DNA from: Methylovirgula sp. | Lineage (GTDB): Bacteria > Pseudomonadota > Alphaproteobacteria > Rhizobiales > Beijerinckiaceae | DNA length: 38,090 bases | NCBI GenBank assembly: GCA_031291555.1 | Contig: JARLIV010000171.1 | Location: 1 to 38,090, forward strand | Reading direction: 5' to 3' | Shown: positions 712 through 19,036 of the stretch, one piece after another | How positions within the stretch are numbered: position 1 is the first letter of the stretch | Layout of the letters: each line of letters starts with the position of its first letter | Made by a program: the position numbers and the translations under genes | Notes under the pieces: generated by a model | Told to the model about the DNA's origin: nothing | The model's database searches: none | What the model saw: only the letters and a program-made list of their open reading frames with translations

Positions 712-2154
712 TCAGTAAAATTGAATACGAAAATCAGGCGCGGTGCGTTGGGCTGTCGCGCGAGTTAACTTGGGGGGGGGGGGGGCTGATTTTGGCTTTT
801 CGCCTGCCTCGAGATCGGCGGTTAATTCAGCCTTGAATTCGTTGAGCGCGAAACTGTGATCGAGGGACCGGTTTTCCTCGAACAGATCGTTGACGCTGCG
901 CAGAACGTCGGCGACCGTCACGCCGCGCGCGACGCCGGCCACCTTATCACGCGCGAAGGCATAGCGCTTCGCCCGTGACGGAATCGATGCAGCCATGGCG
1001 CCGCTAACAATGTGTTCGAGAAGAAAATGCCGGGCGCTTCGCGTTTTGATGTCGAGCTGATCATTTTTGAGCTCGATCCCGATCGTACGGAAATCTGCTA
1101 TTACCTTGAACGGGTCGAACAGGGCCTCGCAGGCGGCGACAACCAGGTTGTCGAGCGGATCCTGGCCGAGCAGGATCCCCGCGAAATTCTTGCGCAGGAT
1201 CGCCTCGATCGCCTCGGCGTTTGGCCGCTTGACGGTGATCTTGAAGTCGCAGCGGCCGTCGCGCAGGACGGCCTGGTCGATGACCTCAGGTCGGTTGGTA
1301 GCAAGCAGCACGAACGCGCCGCTTTCCTGCATGCCGTCCATTTCGGCGAGAAAGGTTGCGACCTGGCCTTCTTCCCAACTCGCGACTCTTCGCACGCGGC
1401 CCGTTCGATCGGGCAGCAGCACGTCGGCTTCATCCATGAAGACAAGCAGTGGATGTCCGTGGCGCGCCTTGTATTCTCGCGCGAACGTGAAAATGGCCTT
1501 GATGTGACCCTCGGTCACGCCGATGAACGGGCTTTGCAGCTCTGATCCGGAAATCGAGATGAACTCGAACTTACCGCCTTTGGCGTAGAGCCGCTTCATT
1601 TCGGAGGCGGCCGCGCGCGCGAACATCGTCTTGCCGCATCCGGGCGGTCCGGAGAGCAGCGCACCCTTGGGCATTTTCATGCCATAGGCATCATATAGTG
1701 ACTTGTGCTTGACGGGCGCCTCAATCGCATCCCGCAACCCCTCGAGCGCCTCGGCATTGCCGACGATGTCGTCGAAGGCCTGCTCGGGCGCGGTGCAGAG
1801 CCACTTTTCGACCCCTTTGCGCGCATCGCTATAGGATTCTGTTGGCGCGCCTGATGCGGAATTGTTAGGCGGCGGCATACCAAATGAATCTCGTATCGCG
1901 CGAAGCATTTCCGCACGGAGGCCTTCATAACTGTTGCCATTATTTGGGCTGATAGTTGTGAACACGGATGGTCCATTCGATGGAAATCCCCGGCCGGCCA
2001 AATCCGGATTGCACATCATGCAGTTGGGATCGCCGCAACCGCTTACCTTGCGCATTTCCTGTTCGCGCCGGTCCTGGTCACGCGGATCCAGCGAGCGGGG
2101 CATCTTCCCGCGATAATTCGGATCGTAGGGAGATCCGTATTTGTCCCAGCTCAT
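712..2154 (-). CDS. AAA ATPase with N-terminal Cys cluster
   Basis: A classical AAA module of the p97/FtsH/Vps4 type. Walker A is GPPGCGKT (residues 169-176), Walker B LLVFMDEAD (236-244), sensor-1 ATN (285-287), and the arginine-rich RDGRCDF segment is at about 298-304. Such ATPases remodel or unfold protein complexes. The ATG at 2154 is preferred over the upstream ATG (2373) because AAGGGG lies 11 nt before it and the upstream extension overlaps another gene. The N-terminus holds C40-x4-C45-x2-C48, a possible metal site, then a low-complexity linker. The C-terminus (480 aa in all) contains a Pro run coded by 14 consecutive C, so its last residues depend on tract length. It is near the end of the early operon. 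A role in replication or in host takeover is possible; nothing in the sequence decides. Confidence 0.85.
   Translation of the reverse strand: MSWDKYGSPYDPNYRGKMPRSLDPRDQDRREQEMRKVSGCGDPNCMMCNPDLAGRGFPSNGPSVFTTISPNNGNSYEGLRAEMLRAIRDSFGMPPPNNSASGAPTESYSDARKGVEKWLCTAPEQAFDDIVGNAEALEGLRDAIEAPVKHKSLYDAYGMKMPKGALLSGPPGCGKTMFARAAASEMKRLYAKGGKFEFISISGSELQSPFIGVTEGHIKAIFTFAREYKARHGHPLLVFMDEADVLLPDRTGRVRRVASWEEGQVATFLAEMDGMQESGAFVLLATNRPEVIDQAVLRDGRCDFKITVKRPNAEAIEAILRKNFAGILLGQDPLDNLVVAACEALFDPFKVIADFRTIGIELKNDQLDIKTRSARHFLLEHIVSGAMAASIPSRAKRYAFARDKVAGVARGVTVADVLRSVNDLFEENRSLDHSFALNEFKAELTADLEAGEKPKSAPPPPKLTRATAQRTAPDFRIQFY
772..785. repeat. Homopolymer G14 (C14 in the coding strand of the AAA gene)
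   Basis: Fourteen G in a row on the plus strand encode the Pro run near the C-terminus of the AAA ATPase. With 14 C the frame continues for 19 residues (KLTRATAQ...QFY). One C fewer gives Ser and a stop almost at once. One C more gives a different 12-residue tail ending at TGA. Confidence 0.95.
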
Positions 2155-2176
2155 GCGCTTGCTACCCCTTCGATTG

Positions 2177-2455
2177 CTACGTGGTGGAAGTTGTGGGTGG
2201 AATCGGTGATATGGTGCGGGAGGCCTGGCGGCGCTTCCACGCGGCGGCATGTTCGGGACACAGGTCCTTGCCTGGTGCCGGGGCATGGGAGCATTTGGCG
2301 CAGATCGGGCGATCGCAGGTGCCGCTGCGGCGCGCGGGCACTTTCCAGTCGCAAAGGAGGCCGGCCACGCCACCGCAGACGCAGCGCTTCTTGGGGCTGG
2401 TGGTGCAGACGATCGCGCGCGTGCCGTTCGGAAGTGTGACGGAGTTGCAGGGCAT
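2177..2455 (-). CDS. Small Cys-rich zinc-ribbon-like protein
   Basis: A 92-residue basic protein with nine cysteines (about residues 3, 17, 25, 27, 35, 47, 52, 55, 66) plus a His at 69. The core pattern C-D-W-K, then T-C-D-R-P-I-C-A-K-C, then L-C-P-E-H resembles small zinc-binding proteins common in prophages. Metal binding is likely, and DNA, RNA or protein binding is possible. Its ATG overlaps the stop of the preceding small ORF as TGATG, implying translational coupling; a GTG one codon upstream (2458) is the alternative start. It lies between the Myb-repeat protein and the AAA ATPase. No specific function can be given. Confidence 0.75.
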   Translation of the reverse strand: MPCNSVTLPNGTRAIVCTTSPKKRCVCGGVAGLLCDWKVPARRSGTCDRPICAKCSHAPAPGKDLCPEHAAAWKRRQASRTISPIPPTTSTT

Positions 2456-2607
2456 CACTGCCGCGTCGCTATGGCATTTGAAATTTCATGGACCAGCATC
2501 AGCGTAGCGGCGCCGACGCGCGGATTTTCGTCCGGCCAGACATCAGTGAACCAGGCCAAAAGCCGGACGGCGATCGCCACACGGATCGACCAGATAAGGC
2601 GCCTCAC
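2455..2607 (-). CDS. 50-residue hypothetical protein, hydrophobic N-terminus
   Basis: A GTG start at 2607 overlaps the stop of the Myb-repeat gene (GTGA), and its TGA at 2457-2455 overlaps the next ATG (TGATG). Coupling at both ends argues strongly that it is translated. The product starts with an amphipathic or membrane-like stretch (VRRLIWSIRVAIAVRLLAWF), then DVWPDENPR, and ends in a short helix. I do not recognise a family. It could be a membrane-associated microprotein. Confidence 0.6.
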   Translation of the reverse strand: MRRLIWSIRVAIAVRLLAWFTDVWPDENPRVGAATLMLVHEISNAIATRQ

Positions 2608-3833
2608 GGTGCAATACTCTCCAGTTCAAGGATTTGATCGAGGCTCAATGCCGACTTCATTCGACGGCGGCGGCCGAAGTGGATTCCCAGCTTGTCGGTC
2701 GCGTATTTGCTGACCGTCATGGCATGGCGGTCGAGCGCAATCGCGAGGTCGGCAATTGCGATGCCGTTGGCGAACGCGATGCGGAATGCAGCCAGCTCGT
2801 CGGCGGTGTATGGGCGCCAGTAGCCATGCTTCAGCCCGAGGGTCCACGCGCGGTTCAGCACCGCCATGCGCGGCCGGCCCATAGCCGTCGCCAACTCGCG
2901 CGTGTTCATTTTGCCGTAGTGCTGGCGCAGAAATTTCTCTTCCTGAAGTGTCCAGATCGGAGCGATGCGCCATCCGGCAGTCTTTTCGTGCGTGCCCTGC
3001 AGGCCCAGCTCTTTCACTTTCCAACGGATAGAGGAGGGCGTGCGGCCGAGGCGCGTACGCAACGGCGTCAGGCTGGCGCCGGTGCGATATGCCTGGCGCA
3101 GTAACTGCTCTTCTTCGGGCAACCATGGGCGCCCCCAGCCACGGCCATAGCCAAGCTTGCGGATGCGCGATCCGAACCCCGCTTTGGTGCGACGCGGATG
3201 ACCCTCCGCGACGAGTGTTTCGATGATCGCAAGGTATTTGTGGCCCTGCTCAGCGAGTTCTAGCGCTCGATCGAGCTCGGAAACGGACCACCCGGGCGGG
3301 TGGTCAGGATGTGCGATGCAAAGCTTTGATGCTCTGCTGCGAACCGCTGCAATGCTTCGACCGATCAGCACACCGACCAGGCCGGGCGGCAACGCACGGC
3401 GATAGCCTTCGCGCAATTGCGCGTCTTCCCACGCCGACCATGCAGATTCTGCTAGCTCGGCCAGCCCGAGCAACTGCGCACGCGCATAGATCGAAGCGCA
3501 CGAGCGGCCGAGCTCCTGCGCAAGCACGGCGCAAGACGCGGAGCCGTAGCGCCCAACCAGCACGGCGTCTTCCAGATCGGTCCACGCGAGACGGGTCGAT
3601 CGACGCAGGCCGAGGCGCCACGCGCGATCGGCCACACCCGATACAGGCCGGCCGAGCACGCGCGCGATCTCGTCAAACGGCAGGGCTTTGCCGAACAGAT
3701 CGCGCAAGCGCTCGTCTTCGTCGGGCAGCCAGGCGTTGGCGCGGAACGCAATCTCTCGCAACGGATGCACCGTGTCGGCATCGGGCGAGCAAGGTACTAG
3801 CTCGACAAGATCGATATCGAGATCGTCTATCAT
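2604..3833 (-). CDS. Seven-repeat Myb/SANT-like DNA-binding protein
   Basis: This 409-residue protein is almost wholly an array of Myb/SANT or GcrA-like three-helix repeats. I count seven, at about residues 33-76, 82-124, 130-173, 180-230 (diverged, longer), 236-278, 292-334 and 340-384. Each begins with W (Y in the last) then x(2-4)-E, continues E-x-x-L-x-x-x-Y/F, has a conserved L-G-R turn, and ends R-x-x-x-L-G-L. The last helix of each repeat is Arg/Ser-rich like a recognition helix. A short acidic N-terminus precedes the array and a basic RRRR patch follows it. Such an array should contact an extended DNA site of several helical turns, suggesting origin recognition, regulation or DNA organisation. 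It overlaps the HerA-like gene upstream by 4 nt. Confidence 0.75.
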   Translation of the reverse strand: MIDDLDIDLVELVPCSPDADTVHPLREIAFRANAWLPDEDERLRDLFGKALPFDEIARVLGRPVSGVADRAWRLGLRRSTRLAWTDLEDAVLVGRYGSASCAVLAQELGRSCASIYARAQLLGLAELAESAWSAWEDAQLREGYRRALPPGLVGVLIGRSIAAVRSRASKLCIAHPDHPPGWSVSELDRALELAEQGHKYLAIIETLVAEGHPRRTKAGFGSRIRKLGYGRGWGRPWLPEEEQLLRQAYRTGASLTPLRTRLGRTPSSIRWKVKELGLQGTHEKTAGWRIAPIWTLQEEKFLRQHYGKMNTRELATAMGRPRMAVLNRAWTLGLKHGYWRPYTADELAAFRIAFANGIAIADLAIALDRHAMTVSKYATDKLGIHFGRRRRMKSALSLDQILELESIAP

Positions 3834-5044
3834 GACAGCGCCACGACCTTGATATCTGTGAGGCGCTGGCGCAGCCGGGCGTGTAACCGAGCAATGCGAC
3901 CGGGGCCGCGTGGCATTGTTTCGACCGCCGCCATTGCGGACAGGATATCCAGCGCGTCATCCACTTCGGACACCGGCGCGCCCAGGTGCAGCGCGAGATC
4001 TCCGCTGGTGGTCGCGCTTGGCGAGATCTTACGCAGCGCGGCAACGGTGCGAGCGGCGGTCGCAGCGTTGGGATCGAGCAGGAACGCATCGATCGCGCCG
4101 CGCCCCTTCGTAACCAGATGAACATCACGGCTTGTCGCGGCGCATGATCGCAAGGAATCGAGGTCGAGTAGCTCGCGCGCGCGGTCTGCGCCATGGGCTG
4201 CGGACTCGATGAGATCAGGCGTGCAACCCAGGTGTCGCGTGATCGACGGATCGATCTTGATGAGCTCGGGAACGTCGCAGAGCGCCGGCCCGAACGCAAA
4301 AAACATGCCGGGCGCCAGATTGCGAAATCGATCGGCGTTCGTGCGGTCGAAACCGAGCAAGTCTGCCGCGCGCGCGATATCGCGGTCGAACACGTTGATG
4401 CCGACGAGAAAGTTCTGCAGCTCGGAAACAACCGACGTTGCGAGCTTTGCCAGGCGCTGGGTCGCAATGACCGGCGCGACCCCGCGCTTGCGGCCGCGGG
4501 CGCACACATCGGTCAATGTAGCGACTCCGATGCGCCGCGTTTCTGCATCGCGCGCGCTGCCGGCGAGATGCGGGGCGAGCAAGTGACCTTCGTCGATCGC
4601 CAGCAGGACCGTATTCGCCCAATATTCGCGATCGACAGCGATCAGCCCCGATAGAAATGCCGATGCGCGCAAGATGCGGTCTTCGGGATCGAGGTCGGTC
4701 AGATCGACGTGGAGGTTGATCCGGTGCTGCCGGCCGCGAACCGCCGCAGCGGTCAACCCTTCGTTGGTAAGCTCGGCCGCGCGGATAGTGGTTGCGCCAA
4801 TGTGTTCCGCTAGATTGCCGAACTCGCCTTCCGGGTCGACGATCATCACGGTCAGATAATCGAATGCCTCTTCGACGATCTTGCGCAACGTGAAAGATTT
4901 GCCGGCGCCGGAACTGCCCTGGATCAAAAGACGACCCGCCATCAATTTGTCGAGATCGAGATTGATGACGAGCCCGCTGGTGTGGCCGATCGGCACGCGG
5001 TTTGCAGGCGGTACAACGCTGGCGACGGCAGAAAGGGCACTCAT
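3830..5044 (-). CDS. HerA/FtsK-like (DUF87) P-loop ATPase
   Basis: A 404-residue ATPase of the HerA-FtsK superfamily. Walker A is GSSGAGKS (43-50), the strand MIVDPEGEF (67-75) follows the typical HerA D-x-x-x-E/D-x pattern, Walker B is LLAIDEGHLL (147-156), and the motif VIATQR is at 192-197. The family includes hexameric DNA translocases/helicases. The C-terminal third (about 300-404) has a small helical, wHTH-like tail. ATG 5044 is chosen because it forms an ATGA overlap with the upstream gene; a start at 5128 would add a basic tail read inside that gene. No NurA-like nuclease is adjacent. A replication or packaging motor role is inferred. No DnaB- or RepA-type helicase is seen in the window. 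Confidence 0.8.
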   Translation of the reverse strand: MSALSAVASVVPPANRVPIGHTSGLVINLDLDKLMAGRLLIQGSSGAGKSFTLRKIVEEAFDYLTVMIVDPEGEFGNLAEHIGATTIRAAELTNEGLTAAAVRGRQHRINLHVDLTDLDPEDRILRASAFLSGLIAVDREYWANTVLLAIDEGHLLAPHLAGSARDAETRRIGVATLTDVCARGRKRGVAPVIATQRLAKLATSVVSELQNFLVGINVFDRDIARAADLLGFDRTNADRFRNLAPGMFFAFGPALCDVPELIKIDPSITRHLGCTPDLIESAAHGADRARELLDLDSLRSCAATSRDVHLVTKGRGAIDAFLLDPNAATAARTVAALRKISPSATTSGDLALHLGAPVSEVDDALDILSAMAAVETMPRGPGRIARLHARLRQRLTDIKVVALS

Positions 5045-5583
5045 GCGGCGGTACTTTCGATTTCGCCGCCCATGGGGGCGGCATGGCATTTGAAGGTGAG
5101 GACCAAGACAGCGGGGTCGTTTTCCCATTTCGGCGGCCGGATCGATCGCTGGTCAATGAAGCCGCGCAGGCCGGCGTTCCAGGCCTGGGCGAATTGATCA
5201 AGGGTAGTGAAGCCGGCATTGATTGCGTCTGCCGGGGTGATCGATTGCAGGTGGATGGTATCGATTGACGTGATGACAAGGTGCGCGCGATGCCAGGCCT
5301 TGGGGAGTTCGCGGGCAAAGCGCCGACGGCCGAGATCGCTGGTCGCATAATCCGGAAGGTCATGCTCGTCGGACGACATGACTGGGGTGGCGCCGCGATC
5401 AAGCGCCTGCAGGGGGCTGATATGGTCGTAATCGCGGTGAATCCGGAATTGCTCACGGATCCACAGGCGATCGCCCGCGCGACATGCCGCCAGCGCGCCG
5501 CGCGGGCGGCGCAGCGTGGTGCAGGTGCCGTCGAGCACACGGCTGATGGTGGGGGCGATGATCGTGATCGGGCGGTCAGGCAT
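5041..5583 (-). CDS. Phage ASCH/PUA-like protein
   Basis: A 180-residue protein with the strand pattern TTLRRPRGALAACRAGDRLW followed by IREQFRI and, later, LPKAWHRAHLVITSIDTIHL. These are the RNA- or nucleotide-binding features of ASCH/PUA-like barrels found in many phages. The ATG at 5583 overlaps the stop of the preceding gene by 8 nt; longer readings start inside that gene. ASCH domains are thought to bind RNA or modified nucleotides, and some members are hydrolases acting on modified nucleosides. Another ASCH protein lies at 6758-7279. The substrate is unknown. Confidence 0.65.
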   Translation of the reverse strand: MPDRPITIIAPTISRVLDGTCTTLRRPRGALAACRAGDRLWIREQFRIHRDYDHISPLQALDRGATPVMSSDEHDLPDYATSDLGRRRFARELPKAWHRAHLVITSIDTIHLQSITPADAINAGFTTLDQFAQAWNAGLRGFIDQRSIRPPKWENDPAVLVLTFKCHAAPMGGEIESTAA

Positions 5584-6557: not shown

Positions 6558-6765
6558 GGGCCGCGCTTCCAGCCAGGTGATCGGCGACATGCTTCTGCCA
6601 AAGACGGAGATCTGCATCGTAGCAATGCAGAATTGCTTGCGCTGGCATGGCGCAGCCGCGCGAAACCTTGTACGATTTCTCGACCTGTTCATCGAGCGCC
6701 TGCGCGCGGAGGGACAGTTCGGCCGCTTGGCGCAACAGATCGAGGCAGATGCGGCATTTAGGCAT
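6550..6765 (-). CDS. Small hypothetical protein with C-x2-C start
   Basis: 71 residues. The start MPKCRICLDLL is followed by a long amphipathic helix (RQAAELSLRAQALDEQVEKS) and a second helical part with H-C-Y-D and W-Q-K-H. It overlaps both neighbours by 8 nt. No family recognised. Confidence 0.55.
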   Translation of the reverse strand: MPKCRICLDLLRQAAELSLRAQALDEQVEKSYKVSRGCAMPAQAILHCYDADLRLWQKHVADHLAGSAAHV

Positions 6766-7279
6766 CGACCGCCTCCGTCGTCAGACTGAGCTCTTCCGGT
6801 GTCGGCCAATGCCAAAATCCCTGGGCACCCCGCATGGGGACAGACGCATCCCAGACCTCGATATCCAGCATGGGCCAACCCCAGTTGGCGTGTTCATCTC
6901 GATCGCTGTCGTTGGCGCGGGGGACGCTGAATTCTTCGGCAATTTCCGGGCCGGGGCGGGGTTCGCCGACGATTGCGGTGCCCAGGCCACAGGCCATGGG
7001 GAGCTCCCCTCCGATGGCCATGCCAAGTATTGGCAAAGCCTTTTCAGGTACAAGGCAGGTTTCCGCTGCATCGACACGATGATCGTCCGACCTGTCCCGC
7101 ATGGTGAGAACGCGAAACAGATCGAGTGTTTCGAGCAAATTCATCTTGCGCGCGGCGGCATGGATGACGATGCGCTGGCCGATGATTGAACGCGGCGCGC
7201 GCCAGCCACGGAATTCGTAGGGCTTTGCGCCCGCAATGATCAGGCTGGCCCAGGGCTGCCAGATGGTGAGCGCTTTCAT
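6758..7279 (-). CDS. ASCH domain protein
   Basis: 173 residues with an unmistakable ASCH start: KALTIWQPWASLIIAGAKPY, then E-F-R-G-W-R-A-P, then G-Q-R-I-V-I-H-A-A. ASCH proteins form a PUA-like beta barrel that binds RNA or nucleosides and are frequent in phages. The middle (about residues 60-110) is a longer loop region and the end W-P-M-L-D-I-E-V-W-D closes the barrel. ATG 7279 overlaps the DUF5131 stop (ATGA). The physical substrate is not known. With the ASCH-like gene at 5041-5583 this makes two PUA-type proteins in the same operon. Confidence 0.85.
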   Translation of the reverse strand: MKALTIWQPWASLIIAGAKPYEFRGWRAPRSIIGQRIVIHAAARKMNLLETLDLFRVLTMRDRSDDHRVDAAETCLVPEKALPILGMAIGGELPMACGLGTAIVGEPRPGPEIAEEFSVPRANDSDRDEHANWGWPMLDIEVWDASVPMRGAQGFWHWPTPEELSLTTEAVDA

Positions 7280-8268
7280 GCCGCACCGCCCAGGCCGAAG
7301 GACTCGGTCAGCTTGGTGAATTGGACGGCGGGGAGGTTGATGCCGGTAGGGATAGCGTTGTGCTCGACGCCATCGAGCAGGCGGCCGGCGGCTTTCTTTC
7401 CGACGCGGGTGAGGCTGGCCAACTTGAATTGTCGCGCCAGCGCGCTATCAAACAAGTCAGGTGACTGGCATCGACCGTCCTGATCGATTACTTTGATATT
7501 GGCCCAAGAATTGCGAACATAGGGCGACCACTCACCCCACTGCTTAAAGAAATAGGCGATGCCTCGCGGCGCGCACCAATCCCGCGTGGCGCGTTGCCAG
7601 TCTGGATGCATCGGGCGCGCATTCGGGCCGGATTCTCCGCCACCGATTATCTGGTGGACAAAATCCCAGCCTTCCCAGTCGACGGGACCGAGCGCCGGCT
7701 CGTAACTGACGAATTTCACTGCGCCGGGCGTGGCGCGGAAATCCTCGCGGCGTTCATCGGCACGGGTCTGATCCTCAACGCTGACGCCGAGCCAGACATT
7801 CGGGAGGGGCCACTGCCAACGCGTCGGCAAACCGCCAAGGTATCGGCATTGATCGAGCACGCGCTCCGGCGTGGCGGGATCCTCGAAATAGCGACGCATG
7901 TGCGTGCTACGCTTGGTCAGGAACAAGTGGATATGCTGGAGCGTCAGCGCCGCGACGGCAAGTTCGCGATCGATCCATTCGACCGGTACGGATTCATGCC
8001 AGGCATCGCCGTGCGCGTTCCAGAATATCCGGCGCGGGCGTCGCCAGGACAGCGGGCGCCGGAGCCAGGTCTCGTTGAGCCGGACGGCGCCGGTCCAGAC
8101 ATGGCCCGCTTTGCTTTCCTGCGTCAGGCCGTTTGACGGGTGGTGGGGGCGCCCCATGCCGCCGGCGCGCATGGCGAAGCAATTGGCGCAGCCTGGCGAG
8201 ATCGGCGTGCACCCGCTGATCGCGTTGACGGTCGCATGACACCATTCGATGTTGCTGTTGTCAGCCAT
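7276..8268 (-). CDS. DUF5131 / phage Gp37-Gp68 family protein
   Basis: A 330-residue member of the Gp37/Gp68 (DUF5131) family. The start I-E-W-C-H-A-T-V-N leads to the cysteine motif C20-x6-C27-x2-C30 (GCTPISPGCANC), then the family motifs WHESVP, HLFLTKR, NVWLGVSVED, FVSYEPALGP, GGGESGP and YFFKQWGEW. The family is placed near radical SAM enzymes because of the cysteine motif, but the reaction is unknown. It is very common in prophages, often beside ASCH proteins as here. Length is normal for the family. The sequence shows no truncation. Confidence 0.9.
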   Translation of the reverse strand: MADNSNIEWCHATVNAISGCTPISPGCANCFAMRAGGMGRPHHPSNGLTQESKAGHVWTGAVRLNETWLRRPLSWRRPRRIFWNAHGDAWHESVPVEWIDRELAVAALTLQHIHLFLTKRSTHMRRYFEDPATPERVLDQCRYLGGLPTRWQWPLPNVWLGVSVEDQTRADERREDFRATPGAVKFVSYEPALGPVDWEGWDFVHQIIGGGESGPNARPMHPDWQRATRDWCAPRGIAYFFKQWGEWSPYVRNSWANIKVIDQDGRCQSPDLFDSALARQFKLASLTRVGKKAAGRLLDGVEHNAIPTGINLPAVQFTKLTESFGLGGAA

Positions 8269-10383: not shown

Positions 10384-10619
10384 CAGTCGATCCCCAGCGC
10401 GTTTTTGTAGGTCTCGAGAATCGCTTCCATTTCGCGGCGATCGTCGGGCTTCATTTTGCGAAGGCGGACGATTTCGCGGACGATCTTGGCGTCATAGCCG
10501 GTGGCTTTCGCCTCGGCGTAGACGTCCTTGATATCGTCGCCGATACCCTTCTTTTCTTCCTCAAGGCGTTCGATGCGCTCGATCAACAGGCGCAGGCGAT
10601 CATCGGCGGCTTCAGGCAT
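10383..10619 (-). CDS. gapR: GapR-like nucleoid-associated protein (DUF2312)
   Basis: 78 residues. The start [23 protein letters not shown] and the end [20 protein letters not shown] plus R-x-E-x-E-A-I-L-E-T-Y are the DUF2312/UPF0335 signature. Chromosomal GapR of Caulobacter forms coiled-coil tetramers around overtwisted, AT-rich DNA ahead of replication and transcription and is needed for normal replication. Here it is a phage copy in the early operon, which fits a role in phage DNA replication or in altering host nucleoid behaviour. ATG 10619 overlaps the preceding TGA (TGATG). Upstream in-frame codons read through another gene. Confidence 0.9.
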
Positions 10620-10771
10620 CAGACATGGCCTCCAAAGGCGAGGGCAGAGATCAGGATGAGGATGGAGCCGAGCCCGGCCACGCCAGCGGCGAGACGCATG
10701 GCGCCTTCGCCGCGCGCCGATTTTTCGGCGGGCTTGCATCGCGCGGACTGAAAGCGGCCGGGCAGCGACAT
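10619..10771 (-). CDS. 50-residue predicted membrane protein
   Basis: ATG 10771 opens a 50-residue ORF with a basic N-terminus ([20 protein letters not shown]) and one hydrophobic helix near the end ([21 protein letters not shown]). It is the first gene after the internal terminator at 10847-10899 and is coupled to gapR by a TGATG overlap. No family recognised. Confidence 0.6.
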
Positions 10772-10930
10772 CGGGTATCTCCGGGCAGCAGAAACCCGCA
10801 TCCGAAAGCGCGGGAAAGCGCATCGGATCGCGGATGAAACATTGGGAAAATCGGGCGGAGCGCGGCCGGGGAATTTAGGGGCAACCGCGCTCCGCCCGAA
10901 GGCACCACCCATTGGCAGCGCCGCTCAGGG
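10772..10930. other. 159-bp gap inside the early operon holding a strong hairpin
   Basis: This is the only sizeable untranslated gap in the leftward operon. It holds the perfect 15-bp inverted repeat annotated as a terminator. A promoter for the distal early genes could also lie between the hairpin and 10771; I see no clear -35/-10 pair. Confidence 0.6.
10847..10899 (-). terminator. Strong intrinsic terminator within the early leftward operon
   Basis: Arms 10851-10865 and 10885-10899 are a perfect 15-bp, very GC-rich inverted repeat with a 19-nt loop. On the minus strand the stem is followed at once by ATTTTCCC, giving a short U tract at the correct place. On the plus strand no U tract follows. 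It therefore ends leftward transcription after the cro-cII-like genes unless transcripts are antiterminated, much like tL1 in lambda. Confidence 0.8.
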
Positions 10931-14378: not shown

Positions 14379-14566
14379 CCATCGATATTGCCCGCATGCG
14401 TGAGCTGTCAAAGGGCGATGATCAGGAGGCAGTACCAGTTACGCGCCGCATGCTGCGCGCGATCGTGGAGCAGCTCGACGCGTTTGACCGGCTGAAATCG
14501 CATATCGATTGGCGCGAGCGGGTCAACGCGGCGCTACGCGATCTTGCGGACGAGCGCGCGGCATGA
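14375..14566 (+). CDS. 63-residue hypothetical protein
   Basis: Mostly helical: TIDIARMRELSKGDDQEAVP, then R-R-M-L-R-A-I-V-E-Q-L-D-A-F-D-R-L, then W-R-E-R-V. It overlaps both neighbours by 4 nt. No family recognised. Confidence 0.6.
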   Translation: MTIDIARMRELSKGDDQEAVPVTRRMLRAIVEQLDAFDRLKSHIDWRERVNAALRDLADERAA

Positions 14567-15294
14567 CGGCGCCCCAACACCCCGATGCGATCGAGATCAG
14601 TGGCAAGGCCTATCTCCACAATGCGCGCGGCGATCTGGTACCGATGTCCAACATCCGGGCGATTGACCTTTTGCAGGATGATATGGTCCGCAAGGCGGCC
14701 GCCTATGCAGAAGACCTGTCGGCCGAACTCGCCCGGTTCCAAGCCCACTCCTATGCCGACATAGCCGCATTCGATGCTCTGCTGGATCAGGAATATGGGC
14801 TCAGGTCGGCGCGGTCGACCAAGGGAAACCGGAGCTTTACGTCGTTTGACGGCTCTCTGCAGGTCAAGGTCTGCATCGCCGATCAGATTGCATTCGGGCC
14901 AGAGCTGCAGTCGGCGAAGAAGCTGCTCGACGAGCTGATCATCGAAAAGGCGAAGGGCGCCGACAGCGTGCTGATCGCGCTCGTGAATCAGGCGTTCAAC
15001 GTCAACAAAGAGGGCAAGGTCGACACGGCCTCCATCCTTGCGCTGCGCCGCCTCGAGGTCGATGATCCGCGCTGGTCAGACATCGTGCGCGCCATCGATG
15101 ACAGCATCAAGGTCTTCGGATCGAAGTCGTACCTGCGATTCTATCGCAAGGGGGCGGATGGGCGCATGGTGATGATCCCGCTCGATCTGGCCAGCGTATC
15201 GCCCAGCGCTGCGGCGCTGGAGCGCAAGAGCTTGCGCCAGCGCGTGGCCGAGCTTGAGGCGGCATTGGCCGAGGCACAGGCGGCACGGGCATGA
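14563..15294 (+). CDS. DUF3164 family protein
   Basis: 243 residues from ATG 14563 (ATGA overlap with the previous gene). Family-typical parts are SGKAYLHNARGDLVPMSNIR, then L-Q-D-D-M-V-R, then YADIAAFDALLDQEYGL, FTSFDGSLQVKVCIADQI-A-F-G, and IALVNQAFNVNKEGKVDTAS. DUF3164 proteins are found in Mu-like and other transposable or temperate phages and have no proven function. The C-terminal 30 residues form a short coiled coil (RQRVAELEAALAEAQ). In Mu relatives this gene is early; here it lies between the regulators and the head genes. Confidence 0.85.
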   Translation: MTAPQHPDAIEISGKAYLHNARGDLVPMSNIRAIDLLQDDMVRKAAAYAEDLSAELARFQAHSYADIAAFDALLDQEYGLRSARSTKGNRSFTSFDGSLQVKVCIADQIAFGPELQSAKKLLDELIIEKAKGADSVLIALVNQAFNVNKEGKVDTASILALRRLEVDDPRWSDIVRAIDDSIKVFGSKSYLRFYRKGADGRMVMIPLDLASVSPSAAALERKSLRQRVAELEAALAEAQAARA

Positions 15295-15509: not shown

Positions 15510-16202
15510 GTGCTCAATCTCGATATCAAGGTCGACCTGAAGCCGATGCACCGCGCGTTGCTCGATCTCGGCAACAAGCAGGTGACGTTCGCTGCAGCGG
15601 CAGCGTTGACCAAGCTGGCACAGGGTGCCTCCGATCAGGAAACGATCGCCGTCAAGGAAACTTTTGATCGGCCAACCCCTTTCACCCAACGGGGCTTCCG
15701 GATCGTTCCCGCCACGAAGGGCACGCTTGCATCGTTCGTCTTGGCGAAGGACATTCAGGCGCAATATCTCGCGCCGTATGTGTTCGGCGGCCCACGCTTC
15801 CTCGGATCCAAGCGCGCGATGCTTGTGCCCAAACAGGTCGGCGTCAACCAGTACGGCAACCTGCCGCGCAATAAGCTGGCCCAGTTGAAAGGCAGATCCG
15901 ATATCTTCATCGGCCCGGTGAAGTTCAAAAGCGGCGAAACGATCAATGGCGTGTGGCAGCGCCCGGCAGTCGGCATTCGCCGCGACGGCGCGCGCGGCAC
16001 CAAGGGCGCAACGAAGGGCAGCAAGACCGCATCGGTCATCGCCAGCGCCAACACTGGCCTGAAGCTGCTGATACGCTTCGAGGACACATCGGATGCACCG
16101 AAGCACCTGCCGTTCATGGAGCGCGCCCGCGCATACGTCACGGCCAACGCGCGGCGCGAGTTCGAGGTCGCACTCAGGCGCGCGCTGGCCACGGCACGGT
16201 GA
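15510..16202 (+). CDS. Phage minor structural protein-like (possible tail completion/connector)
   Basis: 230 residues from GTG 15510. Its pattern LNLDIKVDLKPMHRALLDLG, then FAAAAALTKLAQ, E-T-F-D-R-P-T-P-F-T, then FVLAKDIQAQYLAPYVFGG matches a set of phage proteins usually left as hypothetical but structurally like HK97 gp10/gpZ-type neck or tail-completion proteins. The C-terminus is basic. It lies upstream of the terminase genes, an unusual place for a neck protein. Function is therefore uncertain. The start codon follows the previous stop directly. Confidence 0.55.
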   Translation: MLNLDIKVDLKPMHRALLDLGNKQVTFAAAAALTKLAQGASDQETIAVKETFDRPTPFTQRGFRIVPATKGTLASFVLAKDIQAQYLAPYVFGGPRFLGSKRAMLVPKQVGVNQYGNLPRNKLAQLKGRSDIFIGPVKFKSGETINGVWQRPAVGIRRDGARGTKGATKGSKTASVIASANTGLKLLIRFEDTSDAPKHLPFMERARAYVTANARREFEVALRRALATAR

Positions 16203-16320
16203 GGGGGGGGAGGGGCTTTTGGGTCCTTCCGGGACCATCCTGAAACGTGGGTAATTGCGCACCTCGATGCGAGGCCAGCTACGTACCCCAAAACCTGGTT
16301 GACGGTTGACGGTTGACCCC
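16203..16320. promoter_or_regulatory. Probable packaging (cos/pac) region before the terminase genes
   Basis: No gene fits here. From left to right it holds a G8 run (16203-16210), a GGTCC/GGACC hairpin, a CCTCG-ATG-CGAGG dyad (16262-16274), and three head-to-tail GGTTGAC heptamers (16297-16317) ending 3 bp before the small-terminase ATG. In lambda the cos cleavage site and the Nu1-binding R repeats lie just upstream of Nu1, so this is the expected place. Which dyad or G-rich stretch is cut, if any, cannot be decided by eye. Confidence 0.5.
16297..16317 (+). repeat. Three tandem GGTTGAC heptamers
   Basis: GGTTGAC is repeated at 16297, 16304 and 16311 without spacers. The same heptamer recurs inside the small-terminase gene, so these are candidate terminase-binding sites. 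Confidence 0.9.
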
Positions 16321-16944
16321 ATGACTATCTGTTCGCTCACTGCATATGCCAAGCGCCACGGCGTGTCGAAGCAAGCGGCGACGAAATGGAAAACCCGAGG
16401 AGTTCTGGTCTTTTCGGGCGACTTGGTCGACGAGAAAGCCTCGGACCGGCGCATGCGCGACGCCGGCCTCGGGCTATACAAACGACCGTCAACCACGGTA
16501 CCTGAGGTTGACCGCCGGCCACCGAAGGTTGACACCAAGCCATCGGGAGTTGACCGCACTGCGGCACCAGCGCCAGCGCTCGAGGATGGCGAGATCGACC
16601 CCGGCGGGATCGAACAGTTCCTCGCCGATCTCAATATCGGCAAATATCGCAGCCAGGTCGACGCCCAGAAGATCAAGGAAAACGTCCTCGCCGCACGCCA
16701 TCTGATGAGCCTGCAAAAAGAGGCGGGCGAACTTATCGAGGTCGAGCGCGCGTCCACGCAGTTTTTCAAACTCGCCCGCGATGCGCGGGATGCCTGGATC
16801 ACCTGGCCCGCCCGGATCGGGCCATTGCTTGCCGCCGACCTGAAGGCGGACACCCCCACCGTCGTCGAGGCGCTCAACCGCTATGTCCAGGAGCAGCTCG
16901 AAAGGATCGGCGCGGCAGAACCGGACTTCGACGAAGAAGAATAG
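16321..16944 (+). CDS. Terminase small subunit, Nu1-like
   Basis: 207 residues from ATG 16321. The N-terminus (MTICSLTAYAKRHGVSKQAA, then T-K-W-K-T-R-G-V-L) is a winged HTH of the Nu1/terminase-small type. The helical C-terminal half runs KYRSQVDAQKIKENVLAARH, then KEAGELIEVE and FFKLARDARDAWITWPARIG. Nu1-type subunits recognise the packaging site and recruit the large subunit. A linker at about 55-80 contains a 7-residue repeat (V-D-R-R-P-P-K, V-D-T-K-P-S-G, V-D-R-T-A-A-P) encoded by 21-bp DNA repeats. No normal Shine-Dalgarno precedes the ATG; the tandem heptamers occupy that place. It overlaps the large-terminase frame by 62 nt if that gene starts at 16883. Confidence 0.85.
   Translation: MTICSLTAYAKRHGVSKQAATKWKTRGVLVFSGDLVDEKASDRRMRDAGLGLYKRPSTTVPEVDRRPPKVDTKPSGVDRTAAPAPALEDGEIDPGGIEQFLADLNIGKYRSQVDAQKIKENVLAARHLMSLQKEAGELIEVERASTQFFKLARDARDAWITWPARIGPLLAADLKADTPTVVEALNRYVQEQLERIGAAEPDFDEEE
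16488..16554 (+). repeat. GGTTGAC cluster with 21-bp period inside the small terminase gene
   Basis: GTCAACC (inverted) lies at 16488-16494, GGTTGAC at 16506 and 16527, and AGTTGAC at 16548. The last three are spaced exactly 21 bp, two helical turns. They also encode the 7-residue V-D repeats of the protein, so part of the regularity may come from the protein. Confidence 0.85.
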
Positions 16945-19036
16945 GGGGCAAGTTCAAAACCCAGCGACATTGCTGGCCCGATCGTTCGCCCGGGGCTGGC
17001 GGCCGCCACCGCGAATCAGCATACCAGACTGGGCCGACGACAAGCGGGTGAAACCGCGCGGCGCCGGCAGCACTGCGGGAAAGTGGCGCACGGCCGACGT
17101 CGAGATCGCACGCGGGCCCATGCTCGCCGGGACGGAACCGGGCGTGCGCACGATCTCAGCGATGGTCGCTACGCAATTGCTCAAGACCTCGCTGATCGAG
17201 AATGTGTTCGGCTTCCACGCCGATCTCGATCCGTGTCCAATGATGATCGTCCAGCCCAAGGACGACGCGGCGGAGCAGTTCAGCAAAGAGCGCATCGCGC
17301 CGTTCATCAGCGCGACGCCGGCGCTGCGGCTGATCGTCGGATCAGCGAAGACCCGCAGTGGCGACGACACGATCAATTACAAGGCCTTTCCGGGCGGCTT
17401 TCTGGCGCTGACCGGCGCCGGCAGCCCGGACAACCTGGCGCGCAGGCCGCTGCGCATCATCATGTATGACGAGGTCGACAAGTACGTCGTCACGCGGGAA
17501 GGGCTTGCCACCGATATCGGCGACGAGCGCCTCGCATCGTTTTCCGGCAATGCGCTTTCGATCCGCGTCTGCTCGCCTACCGTCAAGGGCGAGAGCGCGA
17601 TCGAGGCGAGCTACGATGAATCAGATCAGCGCCGGGCCAGCGTCACCTGCAAGGACTGCGGGCACCGCCAGTTCCTGGAATTCAGACACGTCGAGTGGGA
17701 CAGAGGAGAGGATGGCAAAAGCCACCGGCCCGAGACGGCCGCCATCCATTGCGAGGCCTGCGGCTCAGTATGGAGCGAAGCGCAGCGTCTTCGGTCATTG
17801 GCCACGATACGCTGGCATCAGACCCGCCGGCTTGAATGCTGCGGCGAATGGCAGTCTCCGCTCGACGTGTACGACGCCGCCTGGCGCGCCTCCGATCCCG
17901 ACCCGGTCGGCAAAGCCTGGGATTGGTGGCAGTCCGATCGCTGGGCCGTCTACCGCGCCAAATGCCAGCATTGCGGCGCATGGTCGGTGTCCAACGAACA
18001 TGCCGGCTTCAACGCCAGCAAGCTGTTCTCGCCGTGGGAGCGCGATAGCCCGGCGCTGATCGCGCGAAAATGGATCAATGCCCAGGGCTTCGAAGATCGG
18101 CTGCAAGTCTGGTGGAACACCCAGATGGCGCTGCCCTATCGCAAGAACACGGGCAAGGATGTCTCGGTCGACGCGCTGACAGAGCGGTGCGAGATCTGGG
18201 AAGCGCCGGTACCTGATGGCGTCGCGTTGATCACGCTGGGCATCGACGTCCAGGATTACCGGGTCGAGATCGAGGTCGTTGGCTGGGGGTGGAACGAGGA
18301 AAGCTGGTCGATCGATTACGAAGTGATCGACGGCGAATTTTCGCATCCCGCCACCCAGGCCGCGCTCGACCAGTACCTGCAGCGGATCTGGCATCGCGCC
18401 GACGGACGACCGTTTGCGATGCGCGCCGCGTGCATCGACACGGGCGGGCATCACACAGATGCCGTCTACGAGTATGCAAAGCAGCGCCTCGGCCGCAAGG
18501 TCTGGGGCATCAAGGGCGAAAGCGCGCGGACCGGCTTCACGAACCCGGTATGGCCGATCAAGCGCCCTAGCTCGCGCTCGAAGAAGACGTACCGGCCCGT
18601 GGTGATCGGGGTCAATGCCGCCAAAGATTTCATCCGGTTTTCACTCGCCAAAGCCGAGCCCGGGCCCGGCTACATGCACTTTTCGACGATGACCGATCGC
18701 GCGCGCTTCGATCAGCTGCTCGCCGAGGACATGGTCTACGAGGGGCACGGGTCGCAACGCCGGCGCAAATGGGTGGCCAAGAAAGGCCGCGCCAACGAGG
18801 CGCTTGACTGCCGGGTCTATGCCTATGCGGCGCTCCATGGGCTGATGCACATGGGGCTGAAGCTCAACAAACTTGCCGACGAGATCTACGGCGCGCGCGG
18901 GACCGAGGCCGCGCCGCCGGCAACCCCAGCGGCTCCTCCGATGGCAACAGTCGCGGCTGAGCCGCCGAACCTGACATCGCTGCCGAAAGACGGTGCCAAA
19001 CGCAAACCCGGGTTTACCCGGCGACTTGCCCGATAG
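16883..19036 (+). CDS. Terminase large subunit, GpA family
   Basis: 717 residues from ATG 16883; TTG 16970 (688 residues) is possible because the family usually starts near LLARSFARGWRPPP. Known family: the ATPase-nuclease motor that packages DNA into proheads. Visible parts: DWADDKRVKP and a G-K-W-R-T entry, an ATPase core with MMIVQPKDDAAEQF and Walker B LRIIMYDEVDKY, and zinc-ribbon pairs C-K-D-C-G, C-E-A-C-G and C-Q-H-C-G in the middle. The C-terminal RNase H-like nuclease shows acidic motifs in ITLGIDVQDYRVEIEVVGWG, ACIDTGGHHTDAV and EALDCRVYAYAAL. The last 70 residues are Ala/Pro-rich. Length is normal for the family. It is followed 9 bp later by gpW. Confidence 0.95.
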   Translation: MSRSSSKGSARQNRTSTKKNRGQVQNPATLLARSFARGWRPPPRISIPDWADDKRVKPRGAGSTAGKWRTADVEIARGPMLAGTEPGVRTISAMVATQLLKTSLIENVFGFHADLDPCPMMIVQPKDDAAEQFSKERIAPFISATPALRLIVGSAKTRSGDDTINYKAFPGGFLALTGAGSPDNLARRPLRIIMYDEVDKYVVTREGLATDIGDERLASFSGNALSIRVCSPTVKGESAIEASYDESDQRRASVTCKDCGHRQFLEFRHVEWDRGEDGKSHRPETAAIHCEACGSVWSEAQRLRSLATIRWHQTRRLECCGEWQSPLDVYDAAWRASDPDPVGKAWDWWQSDRWAVYRAKCQHCGAWSVSNEHAGFNASKLFSPWERDSPALIARKWINAQGFEDRLQVWWNTQMALPYRKNTGKDVSVDALTERCEIWEAPVPDGVALITLGIDVQDYRVEIEVVGWGWNEESWSIDYEVIDGEFSHPATQAALDQYLQRIWHRADGRPFAMRAACIDTGGHHTDAVYEYAKQRLGRKVWGIKGESARTGFTNPVWPIKRPSSRSKKTYRPVVIGVNAAKDFIRFSLAKAEPGPGYMHFSTMTDRARFDQLLAEDMVYEGHGSQRRRKWVAKKGRANEALDCRVYAYAALHGLMHMGLKLNKLADEIYGARGTEAAPPATPAAPPMATVAAEPPNLTSLPKDGAKRKPGFTRRLAR

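Follow-up and report, generated by a model that had tools for sequence, protein, structure and literature searches.

The window (the whole 38,090-nt stretch of Methylovirgula sp. DNA that was analysed) covers a prophage region, with genes for a tail sheath, a lambda-family portal, an S49 protease and a large terminase of the GpA type; the prophage may be defective. A gene for a DUF3164 protein (PF11363, phrog_846; 14509–15294, + strand) lies just 5′ of the tail and terminase genes, and a GapR-like DNA-binding domain (PF10073, a chromosome-structuring family) is encoded inside the prophage region at 10386–10823 (− strand). Also on the − strand are a cluster at 712–5128, encoding two ATPases, one AAA and one HerA-type (DUF87), together with a multi-HTH regulator resembling phrog_323 (D5-like), and, at 6758–8268, an ASCH-domain protein adjoining a DUF5131 protein. 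The features of concern here surround the start of the gene for the terminase small subunit (TerS):

15510–16202, + strand: gene for a minor tail protein (phrog_1924), directly 5′ of the predicted cos region
16221–16230, + strand: cosQ-like element GGGTCCTTCC, the same or nearly the same sequence being found 5′ of TerS in about 104 loci with different R-motif types
16251–16262 (±1 nt), + strand: predicted cosN, left cohesive end GTAATTGCGCAC, placed by homology to the 12-nt 5′ end of phage BZS1 and by the lambda spacing from cosQ
16297–16303, + strand: predicted R site 1, GGTTGAC, core at bp 48 from the predicted left end
16304–16310, + strand: predicted R site 2, GGTTGAC, core at bp 55 (the lambda R3 core is at bp 54)
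16311–16317, + strand: predicted R site 3, GGTTGAC, core at bp 62
16321–16944, + strand: gene for TerS, 207 aa (phrog_57, E 3e-16)
16369–16398, + strand: recognition helix of the TerS winged HTH, residues 17–26, KQAATKWKTR (AlphaFold2 model, pLDDT ~95)
16474–16599, + strand: TerS linker, codons 52–93, bearing the distal R sites (pLDDT 49–76 per ten-residue block)
16488–16494, − strand: predicted R site 4, inverted GGTTGAC within TerS, core at bp 238
16506–16512, + strand: predicted R site 5, GGTTGAC within TerS, core at bp 257
16527–16533, + strand: predicted R site 6, GGTTGAC within TerS, core at bp 278
16548–16554, + strand: predicted R site 7, AGTTGAC within TerS, core at bp 299
16952–19036, + strand: gene for the terminase large subunit, GpA type (PF05876, PF20454, phrog_15); start uncertain, the ORF opening with an ATG at 16883

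Beside the repeated sites, then, stand terminase genes of the Nu1/GpA type (phrog_57 for TerS; PF05876 and PF20454 for the large subunit). The phrog_57 profile also matches Nu1 of lambda, gp1 of N15 and TerS of the Serratia phage vB_SspM_BZS1 (BZS1), and the ATG at 16321 is a conserved start among relatives. The AlphaFold2 model of TerS has a confident winged helix-turn-helix (HTH; residues 1–50), a low-confidence stretch (~52–93) and a helical C-terminal part, and to judge from the model the linker (~52–93) is probably disordered. For the N-terminal domain, the structures that matched best were the lambda TerS–RppC complex and terminase DNA-binding domains (6hn7, 7lw0, 7lwr and 7lxs; Z 5.8–6.2, rmsd 1.1–4.1 over 47–60 residues), a Z of about 6 over about 50 residues being moderate by the structure-comparison tool's own yardstick. 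Foldseek alone gave no match to the TerS model at E ≤ 0.001, a Pfam search matched nothing in the window's TerS, and a profile search of PDB sequences returned only a weak match to RppC (E 0.71) and one to the unrelated Tom20 (E 0.086). Assignment to the phrog_57 small subunits combines the profile match with the winged-HTH fold, both of which were found.

An earlier note on this DNA had drawn attention to seven near-identical heptamers within 258 bp. The mapped coordinates bear out the arrangement that it described, with three in tandem before the ATG, one inverted within the gene and three more in the gene at a spacing of exactly 21 bp (16506, 16527 and 16548), subject to the minor correction that six are exact GGTTGAC (16297, 16304, 16311, 16506 and 16527 on the + strand, 16488 on the − strand) and the seventh (16548, + strand) is AGTTGAC. 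The full window holds 11 exact copies, both strands counted, and when all its 7-mers were compared GGTTGAC was the most clustered, its largest count in any 258 bp being six, against at most two in 200 first-order Markov shuffles of the window. In the 2.4-Mb host assembly, same-orientation pairs no more than 30 bp apart were found only at the array, and the notion of a host-wide motif was rejected on this ground. Three tandem copies were present in eight viral contigs, three of which (L048, L049 and L051) encode nothing homologous to TerS and were set aside as chance or unrelated occurrences.

Upstream of the heptamers, the cosQ-like element GGGTCCTTCC begins 30 nt before the predicted cosN block, a spacing matched in the lambda record, where GGGTCCTTTCC begins 30 nt ahead of the right end. 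Window and lambda share the heptamer GGGTCCT, which is the cosQ of lambda. A conserved 7-bp cosQ has been described (PMC4669245). The putative cosN was recognised from BZS1, for which a PhageTerm prediction of the ends has been followed by a PCR check spanning the cos of the prophage (PMC7556043). The 12-nt 5′ end of BZS1 is GCATTGCGCGCC, and GGGTCCTTCC starts 31 nt before the cut at its right end. The corresponding block of the window, GTAATTGCGCACC, is one base longer than GCATTGCGCGCC, so that the predicted nick position is uncertain by 1 nt and the overhang would be of 12 nt, possibly 13; the predicted left end, GTAATTGCGCAC, was set against GGGCGGCGACCT (definition from PMC4669245). The predicted cosN has weak two-fold symmetry, which has been left out of the argument. 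In BZS1, a gene similar to those for minor tail proteins occupies the position equivalent to that of the minor tail gene of the window (PMC7556043).

When the GTTGAC cores are numbered from the predicted left cohesive end, they fall into a proximal and a distal cluster, separated by a spacer of about 170 bp that encodes the HTH. In lambda, which has the same terminase families (phrog_57; GpA ATPase and nuclease) and a winged-HTH TerS, the cores lie at 54 (+), 114 (−) and 156 (+), so the order +, −, + is common to both, and in the R3 register bp 54 of lambda corresponds to bp 55 (R site 2) of the window. The R cores (GTTTCC in lambda, GTTGAC here) and the cosN sequences differ, however, and lambda has three R sites, all 5′ of Nu1 and with an IHF site between R3 and R2 (PMC9026076), whereas four of the window's seven heptamers are inside the TerS gene. 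An inverted R site, rR2, is found inside the TerS gene of N15, about 200 bp from R3 (bp 249–260; PMC4669245), and may be compared with the first in-gene site of the window, which is likewise inverted and begins at bp 238; but the in-gene site of N15 is single and non-essential (PMC4669245), whereas the window has four and some relatives more. BZS1 is closer in arrangement, having the same succession of cosQ, cosN and array, with GGTAACA sites at 48, 55 and 67 before TerS and further copies in the gene, and differs in its R motif and in its recognition helix (SRKTVTSW, against SKQAATKW in the window). These repeats are not mentioned in the passages of the BZS1 paper that describe the ends (PMC7556043).

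TerS homologues were gathered from viral contigs and bacterial genomes, and comparison of their sites, a check that had been proposed at the outset, revealed a constant layout in the window's own clade: most relatives have two or three sites at −35 to −7, and two to six in-gene sites at about +164 to +250 (codons ~55–85). In about 104 homologous loci, with different motif types, a block starting GGGTCCTTCC is followed some 30 nt on by GGG(T/C)(A)ATTGCGC or a variant, GGGTCC being invariant by construction, because the alignment was anchored on it. The cosQ-like element lies 5′ of the predicted cosN at a fixed spacing both in the window (GGGTCCTTCC at 16221) and in its homologues. The cosQ-like element and a repeated motif co-occur (Fisher 7e-14); in 14 loci the element is present and de novo 7-mer counting called no motif. 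Where the element accompanies a repeated, non-palindromic motif (78 loci), the first site is invariably on the + strand at bp 43–49 from the predicted left end (78/78), and the array opens with the lambda order +, −, + in 71. The same cos layout was seen in AcaML1 (L177), phiNP (L178) and phiAP1 (L180), with cores GTTTCC, GTAACA and GTTGCA, respectively; the TerS genes of AcaML1 and phiAP1 are annotated as hypothetical. The distant TerS homologues L035–L047 were accompanied by no cosQ-like block and no convincing repeated heptamer. Rhodobacter phages with a distantly related TerS were considered as a source of mapped ends, but there was neither block nor repeated heptamer in the stretch examined 5′ of the TerS gene in one of them (L176); these loci may package differently.

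Could the sites instead be an operator, through which TerS or another regulator controls terS transcription or translation, with no part in packaging? Three of them sit where a ribosome-binding site belongs, and the heptamer includes TTGAC, resembling a −35 box. Yet while the first site keeps its place relative to cosQ and cosN, the TerS start codon ranges from about bp 45 to more than 210 from the predicted left end, and in the enteric members (L069, L070, L072, L073, L076, L077, L080, L084 and L085) the array is mostly or wholly 5′ of TerS, with the start codon at bp 193–212. Packaging is favoured over regulation because the array holds its place with respect to cosN as the gene shifts. A scan confined to sigma-70 promoters gave no + strand match in 15900–17000. 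A purely regulatory function seems to us very improbable, though the sites may have an autoregulatory role in addition to packaging.

Headful phages are known with pac sites in or near their small-terminase genes, and TerS might likewise bind here to start packaging of DNA with non-unique ends. Against this, the cosQ-like and cosN-like blocks are kept across motif types, the large subunit is of the GpA type, and BZS1, which shares both block and layout, has cohesive ends of 12 nt that have been mapped (PMC7556043); we consider a pac site just as hard to sustain as an operator. The proposal of the earlier note that these are R-like TerS sites of a cos or pac region remains the best reading, and is supported; it can be narrowed to cos, because a cosQ-like element and a block homologous to a mapped cohesive end lie just 5′ at the lambda spacing.

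The weakest alternative, which we discount almost entirely, is that a repeated peptide (V-D every seven residues) was selected in the protein and that the upstream copies are coincidental: all three window copies spaced at 21 bp do encode VD in one frame, but the in-gene heptamers of relatives, some direct in the VD frame and others inverted or in other frames, also read as ST, VN and RQP and between them occupy all three reading frames, linker VD is coded GTTGAC in 22 of 25 instances, compared with 5 of 54 in the rest of TerS together with eight further genes of the window (Fisher 7e-12), identical non-coding copies lie 5′ of the gene, and the repeat region is of low confidence in the model and probably disordered. 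Frame and strand variety, with the VD codon usage, led us to reject it. The seven-residue repeat that had been remarked on is real, as an in-frame product of the three copies; to judge from the coding comparison, the in-gene copies are selected as DNA, and the repeat is a by-product of them rather than a competing cause, since the heptamer recurs among relatives in different frames and orientations.

If the heptamers are sites for TerS, the motif might be expected to follow the DNA-binding domain, and it does. Of 151 non-redundant loci, 94 yielded a repeated motif in de novo 7-mer counts on 550 bp per locus; three doubtful calls were dropped, and for the other 91 the core and its orientation were decided manually from the called 7-mers. 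They comprise 12 cores, every one starting with GT (GTTGAC, GTTGCG, GTTGTC, GTAACA, GTCCGC, GTCCCA, GTTCGC, GTTGCC, GTTTCC, GTTTCA, GTTAAC and GTTGCA), with essentially one core per recognition helix. Thus, SKQAA(T/S/G)KW goes with GTTGAC, SRQAAxKW with GTTGCG, SRKTVTxW with GTAACA, xDKLVRRA with GTCCGC, SDTLVRRA with GTTCGC, SHTLVQKA with GTTGCC, and SHTLVSKA with GTTTCC. Over the 91 loci, HTH distance is correlated with motif distance (Mantel r 0.67; 0 of 2000 permutations), and remains so when C-terminal distance is removed (partial Mantel 0.63), whereas the C-terminal distance given the HTH has almost no such relationship (0.05). The HTH was also the better nearest-neighbour predictor of motif than the C-terminal domain at every distance cut-off, its accuracy dropping to 31/91 when only remote neighbours were allowed. 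Part of this co-variation could be co-inheritance, because R sites and HTH are physically linked, and the sampling is biased, because the loci were found partly by helix peptides. Natural swaps were seen in two pairs of loci: L066 and L087 are 75–97% identical over the C-terminal codons and near background over the R sites and HTH, and L069 and L077 keep the cosQ–cosN block and the C-terminal codons while differing in the stretch between. These swaps support modular exchange of R sites together with the DNA-binding domain. In the cos/Rpp system of PICIs, too, cosB differs along with the DNA-binding domain, cosQ and cosN being retained (PMC6739421, PMC9026076), but in that system it is a satellite protein that has the second specificity, and here it is the phage's own TerS.

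From these comparisons we are confident that the window contains a tailed-prophage cos region, served by a Nu1/GpA-type terminase and comprising cosQ, cosN at about 16251–16262 and a multi-copy GGTTGAC cosB, and the GGTTGAC motifs are very probably the docking sites by which the prophage packaging protein recognises its own DNA. The cosB would be made up of the three R sites just 5′ of the TerS start and the four some 170 bp further on, in the linker codons. TerS would bind these sites, and folding of the intervening DNA would bring the two clusters together, anchoring the GpA nuclease on cosN for staggered nicking, predicted by homology to BZS1 to give 12-nt 5′ ends, and for the start of packaging. 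The distal in-gene array may be accessory, because the in-gene rR2 of N15 is non-essential (PMC4669245).

Lambda, 21 and N15 have already made known cosQ and cosN, R sites in several copies and the part played by the recognition helix (PMC4669245, PMC9026076), and N15 the one non-essential in-gene site, rR2 (PMC4669245). Relative to these, what is new is the multi-copy distal R array inside TerS and the many linked specificities; no description of multi-copy in-gene arrays, or of such a range of specificities, was found in the open-access literature searched, which is weak evidence of absence. There is perhaps an even chance that, in many phages, R array and TerS DNA-binding domain form a single exchangeable specificity cassette, the distal array travelling as a passenger in linker codons and the HTH-coding DNA serving as the spacer of a folded cos complex, with about a dozen GT-N4 specificities following a simple recognition-helix code.

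Few packaging specificities of lambda-type terminases have been characterised in the literature searched (lambda, 21 and N15), and the loci described here offer about a dozen more, each with sites and helices, so that the rules of DNA reading by TerS can be put to the test, and for many prophages the cohesive ends and the specificity of packaging can be predicted from sequence. They also place the puzzling in-gene site of N15 within a wider pattern, and provide an example of a protein linker whose sequence would be dictated by DNA sites.
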